Origin: Kordiimonas laminariae
Lineage (GTDB): Bacteria > Pseudomonadota > Alphaproteobacteria > Sphingomonadales > Kordiimonadaceae
NCBI RefSeq assembly: GCF_023008165.1
Contig: NZ_JAKQZA010000001.1
Span: 544,796 to 608,795 of the forward strand
DNA length: 64,000 nt
Direction of reading: 5' to 3'
The position numbers and the translations under genes are program-made. The notes below the pieces were generated by a model that worked only from the letters and a program-made list of their open reading frames with translations, had not been told where the DNA came from and did not search any database. Below are positions 15,738 through 26,414 of this stretch, piece after piece; position 1 is the stretch's first letter, and every line of letters starts with the position of its first letter.

Positions 15738-15902
15738 GCGCGGGCACTGCGCTGTGCGTGCGATATGCAGTAATTCCCGGGGCTATAAACACTCCTAGGG
15801 AGCTGTCACTGGTTAGAACCGTGGTTCTTCTCATACGGCGCCCACCTGATTTATCAGGTTCCGGAGAGTACAAACGTCAGAACGGCAGAGGTGGTCCCGC
15901 AC
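15738..15902 (+). ncRNA. ssrS: 6S RNA
   Basis: About 165 bases between zapA and the 5-formyl-THF cyclo-ligase gene, the classic location of 6S RNA. The ends can pair (GCGGG near 15740-15744 with CCCGC at 15896-15900). The interior can form a long, interrupted hairpin, which fits the open-promoter mimic that sequesters housekeeping RNA polymerase in stationary phase. Ends are approximate. The call rests on synteny, length and terminal pairing; no covariance model was run. Confidence 0.85.
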
Positions 15903-25038: not shown

Positions 25039-25551
25039 TCATACCAATTTATCCATTTCCTGCTGCATGCGTAATCTCAGGTCTGCCCCCAAGTTTGCTA
25101 GGGCAATCTGCTCACTTTTCCCAACGGTTTCAAGCTTATCATCAAAAGCAAGGCCGTGAACCTGCGCAATCTGTAGTAAATAGGCAACAAACGCATCGGC
25201 CCGTGCTCGAATGATCCACTGAAATGGTTTTGTTGGAGCACCCTGTTCGGAACAAGCCGTAGAAAATTCAGCCACCAAGTGCGGTAGAAGAGCATCGCCG
25301 ATTGTTTTCAGGCCAATACAGAAAGCTTCAAATGGTGGCAGCTCATCAAGCCCTTCCACTCGCGGCATATCCTGCTGGCAGGATGCAATAGCCTCTAGTT
25401 CTTCCACCATTTCCTGCAATTTAGCGTCAAGGCATCTTGCAATTTCATCAGCAACCGATTGTTCGGCAGGTGATAGAATCGAGCGGCCAGAAGCCTCCAA
25501 ACCACGCAGGCTTGCGCTCAAAAAATCAATTATCGACGCTTGTTCTATCAT
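25039..25551 (-). CDS. Hypothetical cytosolic protein
   Basis: I do not recognise this gene. From the ATG at 25551 (AGAAAG 7 bases upstream) it gives 170 residues; in-frame starts at 25587 (ATG) and 25605 (TTG) are possible. It is acidic and helix-rich, with no signal peptide or membrane helix. Three Cys residues are scattered with no metal motif. Codon use looks like its neighbours. It lies 67 bases upstream of the DUF6491 gene on the same strand and divergent from the candidate sRNA. Confidence 0.6.
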   Translation of the reverse strand: MIEQASIIDFLSASLRGLEASGRSILSPAEQSVADEIARCLDAKLQEMVEELEAIASCQQDMPRVEGLDELPPFEAFCIGLKTIGDALLPHLVAEFSTACSEQGAPTKPFQWIIRARADAFVAYLLQIAQVHGLAFDDKLETVGKSEQIALANLGADLRLRMQQEMDKLV

Positions 25552-25734
25552 GCCATCACTTTCTATTTGCCATAGTTCTATAGCCATATGTGGGGATTTC
25601 AGCAAGGAAATGCAGCGCTTTAGACCGATCTGTCACAGAGAGTTTAAAAAAAATGTACTTTTTTCATTTTTGCGATTGATTATTAATATCATGCGTGTTT
25701 ATATGATTTTGCAAGCGACGCAATCAAGGGAGCT

Positions 25735-25876
25735 GAACTTGCACGCCGGACCTGACAGCGGCGTTAATACCATAGGTGGGTTCCTGTTGGCCCTGGATAT
25801 CCCACCGCTCTCCTTTTGTTTTCCTAAGGCAAAAGACAAGGCCGCTTCCACGCCATGGGAAGCGGCCTTTTATTTT
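25735..25876 (+). ncRNA. Candidate small RNA with three stem-loops
   Basis: This 320-base gap between two minus-strand genes has no credible reading frame but holds three ordered hairpins on the plus strand. They are ACGCCG/CGGCGT (25743-25764, 10-base loop), GGTGGG/CCCACC (25775-25806, 20-base loop) and a GC-rich terminator (25838-25869) followed by TTTTATTTT. AT-rich, promoter-like sequence precedes about 25730. The layout resembles trans-acting alphaproteobacterial sRNAs of the alpha-r8/MmgR ('suhB') kind. Homology is not shown; the 5' end is a guess. Confidence 0.6.
25838..25876 (+). terminator. Terminator of the candidate sRNA
   Basis: Perfect 12-bp stem AAGGCCGCTTCC (25838-25849) with GGAAGCGGCCTT (25858-25869), 8-base loop, then TTATTTTG. 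No plus-strand coding gene lies upstream for it to serve, which is the main argument for an RNA gene here. Confidence 0.88.
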
Positions 25877-25927
25877 GTATATTGGCCAACACAATGAAAA
25901 TGCCCCCGTGTACTTAGCAATGATACC

Positions 25928-26338
25928 TTAAGGGCTGTTGTAATGAGTGGCAGGAAAGAGGTATTTTCGCCCATTATTTTGGACAAGTAGAAGTCCCTCT
26001 GCATGCCATTCCATCATTCTAATTTCCTGACTTTCAAAAATTTTTATAATCCCGCCAACACCAAACCGAAACACGCCTCTAGATGAAATCCGGATATGAG
26101 CAAAGCAAGTATGGATAATAAACCCGTATAATATCCCTAGAAACACTACAAAGAGTGCTCCTGCGTACAGATATTGAACATTCCCCCACCCGCTAAAATC
26201 ATATTCAATAAAGTTCTCAAAAGGGAAAATGCCAAGAATTATCCCAAGCATACAACCCTGTACTATTGTGCCTAAAAATCGGCGTAAAGGCTTACGATAC
26301 AACACTATATTGATTTTCTGCAGGTCCATTCCCATCAT
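25928..26338 (-). CDS. Hypothetical membrane protein
   Basis: I do not recognise this 136-residue protein. The start is one of three clustered codons (GTG 26341, ATG 26338, ATG 26335), with AGG just upstream. Two membrane helices are clear (about 22-38 and 58-80), followed by a C-terminal beta-rich cytosolic segment of about 55 residues that might be a PH-like fold. More AT-rich than the pnt genes nearby. Between the sRNA candidate and pntB, on pntB's strand but after pntB's terminator. Function unknown. Confidence 0.6.
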   Translation of the reverse strand: MMGMDLQKINIVLYRKPLRRFLGTIVQGCMLGIILGIFPFENFIEYDFSGWGNVQYLYAGALFVVFLGILYGFIIHTCFAHIRISSRGVFRFGVGGIIKIFESQEIRMMEWHAEGLLLVQNNGRKYLFPATHYNSP

Positions 26339-26414
26339 CACGACCTATCATCTTTATACTTTAAGCAAACCTAAGCTGTCGTCTTTGGCAAAGCAATTCT
26401 TCATATATTCAAAC

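Follow-up and report, generated by a model that had tools for sequence, protein, structure and literature searches.

AbcR (alpha-r15) and the other alpha-r families are trans-acting alphaproteobacterial RNAs built of several hairpins. The RNAs of one of these groups, alpha-r8 (suhB/MmgR, Rfam RF00519), have a common single-stranded 10-mer core, UUUCCUCCCU, and keep a constant exposed stretch through which the small RNA SisA is reported to pair (PMC12559287). Our literature searches on Kordiimonas turned up a paper on coral bacteria but no small-RNA study, nor any work on pntB together with a small RNA and Sphingomonadales. Here we describe a locus from Kordiimonas laminariae, lying in a window of 64,000 nt (the whole stretch of DNA that was analysed; all coordinates refer to it), where no Rfam 15 family reached its threshold. 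With moderate confidence, and reasoning from sequence comparison, we favour its interpretation as a stand-alone intergenic small RNA (sRNA) gene of a new family restricted to Kordiimonas, whose product would act via constant loops that pair with RNAs. The features of the locus are as follows.

25667..25675, plus strand: T-rich block TTTTTGCGA, abutting the -35 hexamer on its 5' side and kept in the genus
25676..25687, plus strand: putative -35 hexamer TTGATT with the first six spacer bases, ATTAAT, recognised by homolog comparison
25699..25704, plus strand: putative -10 hexamer TTATAT after a 17-nt spacer, with TGT in front as in an extended -10
~25711..25873, plus strand: predicted sRNA transcript of ~160 nt, from the promoter and terminator positions; its 5' end at ~25711 is placed from the -10 hexamer, +/-3 nt
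25711..25742, plus strand: 5'-end hairpin GCAAG / CTTGC, from RNA folding
25743..25764, plus strand: hairpin A, a covarying 6-bp stem (ACGCCG, 25743-25748, with CGGCGT, 25759-25764) and the loop GACCUGACAG, in which CUGACAG is constant
25775..25806, plus strand: hairpin B, a covarying stem (GGTGGG, 25775-25780, with CCCACC, 25801-25806), a 20-nt loop containing TTCCTGTTGG and the constant UGGCCC, and an inner TCC/GGA helix (25782-25784 / 25795-25797)
25813..25835, plus strand: small hairpin C, CUUUUGUUUU / AAGGCAAAAG, 10 bp, from RNA folding
25838..25878, plus strand: intrinsic terminator, a 12-bp GC-rich stem with an 8-nt loop (AAGGCCGCTTCC...GGAAGCGGCCTT, 25838-25869) and a T-rich tail, TTATTTTGTA

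An earlier sequence-only reading had proposed an unannotated sRNA gene with several hairpins and exposed loops at 25606-25927. The gene does lie inside that span, at ~25667-25878 on the plus strand, and the remainder is flank. All the hairpins described then, and the 12-bp terminator, are present at the letters given for them, and RNA folding of the locus reproduces these helices. Folding also adds two that were not listed, the 5'-end hairpin and hairpin C (small hairpins 3' of hairpin B can be seen by eye in several homologs as counterparts of the latter), so that five hairpins are predicted in the whole RNA. The same reading had held that no plus-strand protein gene ends at the terminator, which agrees with our data: the flanking ORFs, 25039-25605 and 25928-26341, both run on the minus strand; for ORF 25550-25897, which is on the plus strand, neither a Pfam match nor a conserved frame was found. 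Elsewhere in the window, at 15741-15901 on the plus strand, there is a match to 6S RNA that scores 46.6 bits against a gathering score of 46.4.

A DNA search of 59 genomes (that of the window and 58 related ones) revealed a 99% identical copy in one genome, G013, and, in several genomes of the genus, matches to part of the sequence at the corresponding position; the weaker matches were mostly short and chance-like. Twelve loci had one common plan, and six of them were used to build a covariance model, R1. This model matched 17 of the 19 Kordiimonas genomes at E <= 0.1 (weakest accepted E, 0.0059), six of the 17 being its own building rows. In the family search, R1 matched 17 of 29 genomes and none of the 10 family genomes outside the genus, and a scan of these 10 with filters off, covering the 3.6 to 7 kb of sequence 3' of pntB, gave no match at E <= 1. 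At the level of the order, 18 of 296 sampled genomes were matched (the same 17 genus genomes and G194); at the level of the class, model R2, built from all 17 homologs, matched 3 of 385 sampled genomes, i.e. the window's own and two judged false. Both of these searches were run with stricter filters, which can lose weak matches. Weak matches in G001 (C45), G194, G523 and G441 were judged by eye to be coding or chance, with no promoter box seen in front of them; the one in G523 resembles the start of what is presumably a phosphoglycolate phosphatase gene. After reading of the weak matches, none beyond the genus was accepted among the 296 order and 385 class genomes sampled. Within the genomes searched, the RNA family is so far found only in the genus Kordiimonas.

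Folding energy gave a mixed result. For the whole transcript with its terminator, z was -4.5 with one choice of ends and -3.8 with another, and for the terminator alone -5.4 (all significant); the two middle hairpins reached only -0.3 and -0.7, which is not significant. The transcript of the window's genome without its terminator had z = -0.58 (24 of 100 shuffles equalled or exceeded its stability), and across the 17 homologs this value ranged from -4.78 to +0.84. For the 5' segment (25711..25742), some stem folds in each of the 17 homologs with very different letters, a count made without shuffle control. The energy of the RNA body alone is thus insufficient, and it is the covariation in the 17 homologs together with the conservation of the whole gene that raises the locus above chance.

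In a model-fitted alignment of the 17 distinct sequences, 96.0% of the cells are paired, and 11 of the 14 stem pairs have changes on both sides. Double-change cells number 50 (15.4 in shuffles), the covariation score is 0.595 (0.224 in shuffles), and sliding the stem partners lowers pairing to 23-50%. The changes on both sides affect four of the six pairs of hairpin A (98% of its cells being paired on alignment A6) and, in hairpin B, all five outer and two of the three inner pairs. As the alignment was fitted to the structure, these figures are inflated; therefore, a MAFFT alignment of six sequences that was not structure-fitted was counted as well, although the structure scored on it had been chosen on those same sequences. 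Here 91.5% of the cells are paired, eight pairs show double changes, and there are 13 double-change cells (4.4 in shuffles), a number that none of 500 shuffles attained. In further pair types, however, the alignment did not surpass the shuffles (211 of 500), and helix B was just 75% paired. Earlier MAFFT alignments (A1-A4) were not used for the model, since some stems were misplaced in them. A lack of stem conservation in relatives, which the sequence-only reading would have counted against its proposal, was not observed: the stems are kept in the homologs, and compensatory changes are present. While the stems differ, CUGACAG in loop A and UGGCCC in loop B are invariant in all 17 sequences.

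The putative promoter is recognised by comparison. TTGATT occupies the -35 position in 17 of 17 homologs, and the 12-mer TTGATTATTAAT is exact in 14. The T-rich block TTTTTGCGA is exact in nine homologs, takes the form TTTTTAATA or TTTTTGATA in five and is weaker in three. The -10 hexamer is preceded by TG in 14 of 17 homologs, with a 17-nt spacing that was imposed on all 17 and not searched for. The promoter is missing from the output of a simple sigma-70 scan, which returned 4 sites against 3.9 expected, all of them elsewhere. No second exact copy of the promoter block was present in any genome searched. When up to two mismatches were allowed, the 19-mer TTTGCGATTGATTATTAAT gave 17 matches in 19 genomes; 12 of these are the RNA's own promoter, and the other five have two mismatches each. 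A second copy of the block with two mismatches was observed in G011 (C4:187775-187793, plus strand; L081), ~890 nt away from the promoter of the RNA itself and oppositely oriented. A partial palindrome at ~25676-25691 suggested a Fur-type (iron-regulated) box, which was dropped because only the left half of the palindrome is conserved and coincides with the -35 hexamer. The promoter block may be a site where a regulator sets the timing of RNA synthesis. At the other end of the gene, a GC-rich terminator hairpin of at least 9 positions, with 3 to 7 T among the next 9 bases, is found in 16 of 17 homologs; the scripted search of the 17 revealed no convincing terminator hairpin in G005. In the 16 homologs with a terminator, the distance from the predicted start to the terminator is 149-187 nt.

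The gene is not protein coding. The distance from CTGACAG to TGGCCC varies within 30-38 nt without keeping to one frame: divided by three, it gives a remainder of 0, 1 and 2 in 5, 7 and 5 genomes, respectively. Together with the missing Pfam match, this led us to reject ORF 25550-25897 on the plus strand as a protein-coding gene. By kind, the locus corresponds to an intergenic stand-alone sRNA, with a putative promoter of its own (seen in comparison only), a predicted terminator, no conserved frame and conserved structure; promoter, terminator, synteny and covariation speak for the sRNA gene proposed earlier.

In all 17 homologs, pntB is located on the opposite strand, convergent with the RNA gene and at most ~6 kb away (farthest in G003). 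On the other side, the nearest larger conserved gene is a divergent one encoding an M1-peptidase domain in nine homologs (the domain was tested on the G017 copy); the divergent upstream gene is a homolog of the window's 25039-25605 in four and belongs to another minus-strand cluster in three, and none is listed in one. This survey used mechanical ORFs of >=70 aa common to >=4 genomes and disregarded short ORFs that lie within the peptidase gene. No plus-strand gene lies consistently downstream in the 17 homologs. The remaining two Kordiimonas genomes are G004 and G009. In G004 the same genes flank the site and the sequence is free of gaps, but the RNA is missing; in this genome (L132) the RNA is lost from an intact neighbourhood, a natural loss that could be used for comparison. 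No call was made for G009, whose contig stops 674 nt past pntB. The minus-strand ORF 25928-26341, situated between the RNA and pntB, encodes 137 aa without a Pfam match. A recent insertion here, or a deletion in G013, seems to account for it, as pntB in the near-identical G013 is 546 nt closer (at 180 nt, counted from where the model match starts, compared with 726 nt in G000).

What might such an RNA do? RNA polymerase would start near 25711 and stop near 25873, and the 5' hairpin and the terminator would protect the RNA ends. The constant loops would be the working surfaces, held open on stems that are free to change in sequence; pairing of these loops with mRNAs (or with another RNA) would alter translation or decay. 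Constant loops on drifting stems, combined with a promoter and terminator of its own, form the pattern of trans-acting sRNAs, and for this reason we consider that the RNA probably acts in trans through its two constant loops and regulates other genes.

Candidate targets were searched for with the complements of both loops. The complement of loop B, GGGCCAACAG, gave 108 matches in 8 genomes (56 for the reversed-pattern control). After removal of the RNA's own 8 copies 100 sites remained, and the flanks of 16 of the 100 were read. Among the sites in these 8 genomes there are nine orthologous sets of 2 to 4 sites each, none of them start-codon-like in the ORF table. For loop A, the complement GCTGTCAG followed by ATG within 18 nt was too frequent for use, and CTGTCAGGA followed by ATG within 11 nt gave 143 matches in 19 genomes. 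No enrichment was derived from the reversed-pattern control, which was much lower for GCTGTCAG and CTGTCAGGA, because its word composition differs. We examined 110 of the CTGTCAGGA loci, omitting 10 of the 11 sites of G013 (near-identical to G000) and some others; 40 of the 110 open a frame of >=60 codons. The 110 loci contain six sets of alike frames. One is ppk (identified with NCBIfam), in the close group G015, G016 and G010. Two others are single genes that G004, the genome without the RNA, shares with G009 and with G011, respectively. The remaining three are pairs of short frames, one from G008/G006 and two from G003/G014; a longer ORF runs opposite at least one of these pairs (L363/L383). 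The ppk gene is present in 18 genomes, with a readable start in 10; the loop-A complement is found at 3 of these 10 starts and is absent at the other 7. Since the ppk site is confined to three close genomes, it does not qualify as a conserved loop-A target, and exact-seed searches for either loop's complement revealed no target conserved across the genus. Another observation from the start regions is that CTGTCAGGAG is kept just before the starts of two orthologous gene pairs (L356, L358, L309, L317), the DNA further upstream being different; this sequence may be one that the genus prefers for ribosome binding.

The absence of conserved antisense sites in these searches would fit a protein-binding RNA, which remains the main rival to pairing in trans. 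The constant loops would then be recognition sites, and the RNA would titrate or scaffold a protein instead of pairing with mRNAs. The invariance of the loop letters, which might vary in an RNA with drifting targets, fits this possibility. However, inspection of the loops, which was not a systematic search, brought up no known protein site, and alpha-r8 RNAs have a constant exposed stretch as well, which SisA reportedly uses for pairing (PMC12559287). On balance we regard protein binding as unlikely, though worth keeping in mind. A bolder version of the trans-acting reading is rather doubtful. It envisages a regulator common to the genus whose seeds work in an unusual way, being two different invariant loops on freely drifting stems: the loop CCUGACAG would cover Shine-Dalgarno sequences of the form CUGUCAGGAG, UUGGCCC would act elsewhere or on a protein, and the promoter block would be dedicated to this RNA. 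Start regions with CUGUCAGGAG that loop A could cover do exist.

A further idea is that the constant letters are there for the fold of the RNA itself, with CUGACA of loop A forming a kissing interaction with UGUUGG of loop B. Six pairs, two of them G-U, are possible, and 96.9% of the aligned cells can pair. Two constant loops would give this figure in any case. There is zero covariation between the loops: a change in loop B is never accompanied by one in loop A, and the score is equalled by shuffles, which makes such an interaction improbable as the explanation for the constant letters.

Another alternative is regulation in cis, the RNA being a leader or attenuator for a plus-strand gene downstream. 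In G017, G014, G018 and G010 an ORF of cluster 23, on the plus strand and 906-948 bp long, begins just beyond the terminator, 174-191 nt from the point where the model match starts. The same ORF is farther off in G006 and G003, however, and is not listed within 5 kb in the other 11 homologs; in G000, G013, G001, G008, G015 and G016 the nearest downstream conserved gene that was recognised is the convergent pntB (the mixed mechanical cluster 0 being set aside). In 16 of 17 homologs, moreover, the unit ends in a terminator hairpin. The leader reading is therefore disfavoured by synteny, and we rate it as very improbable.

That only the terminator is functional, serving the minus-strand gene 25928-26341 with the other hairpins arising by chance, has next to no probability: the terminator hairpin was scored on the minus strand as well, and the middle hairpins alone fail to beat shuffles on energy, but this idea is contradicted by the compensatory changes in hairpins A and B, by the invariance of the loops and the promoter, and by the near-identical G013, which keeps the RNA although pntB stands at the shorter distance there.

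Equally negligible is the probability that the sRNA is a member of the alpha-r8 (suhB/MmgR) family. The likeness seen by the sequence-only reading stems from a similar plan, hairpins followed by a GC-rich terminator; a Rho-independent terminator, which belongs to the description of alpha-r8, is present here, but it is a trait of very many small RNAs. A search of 25600-25930 against Rfam at E <= 5 gave four weak matches to unrelated families, none of them RF00519. Genome-wide, RF00519 had 10 matches at E <= 1, none at the sRNA locus, and the sole one above the cut-off lies elsewhere, at C11:363917-363988 (55.7 bits, cut-off 41), ~207 kb from the sRNA locus (C11:570537). The core UUUCCUCCCU is absent from 25700-25880 and is present in that separate RF00519 locus (L031). 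On these three grounds membership was rejected, and the likeness to the alpha-r8/MmgR group did not hold.

The genus Kordiimonas thereby gains a previously undescribed sRNA family (no Rfam 15 match) with a covariance model, a predicted promoter and a predicted terminator, and the constant loops supply exact hypotheses for the mapping of targets. The locus also illustrates how a weak folding-energy case turns firm once relatives are compared.

In comparison with known systems, the Kordiimonas RNA is a new family of an ordinary kind. Like alpha-r8/MmgR/suhB (RF00519), it is an alphaproteobacterial sRNA that combines a weak hairpin and a constant exposed stretch with an intrinsic terminator, but it is about twice as long (~160 nt compared with 77 model positions) and has five predicted hairpins. 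The Caulobacter RNAs CrfA and SisA-D are likewise alphaproteobacterial sRNAs that use exposed stretches to pair with RNAs (PMC12559287); in contrast to them, a G/A-rich stretch able to face the alpha-r8 core is, by eye, not conserved in the Kordiimonas family. From AbcR (alpha-r15) and the other alpha-r families, the Kordiimonas RNA is set apart in that no Rfam family scores over its threshold at this locus.
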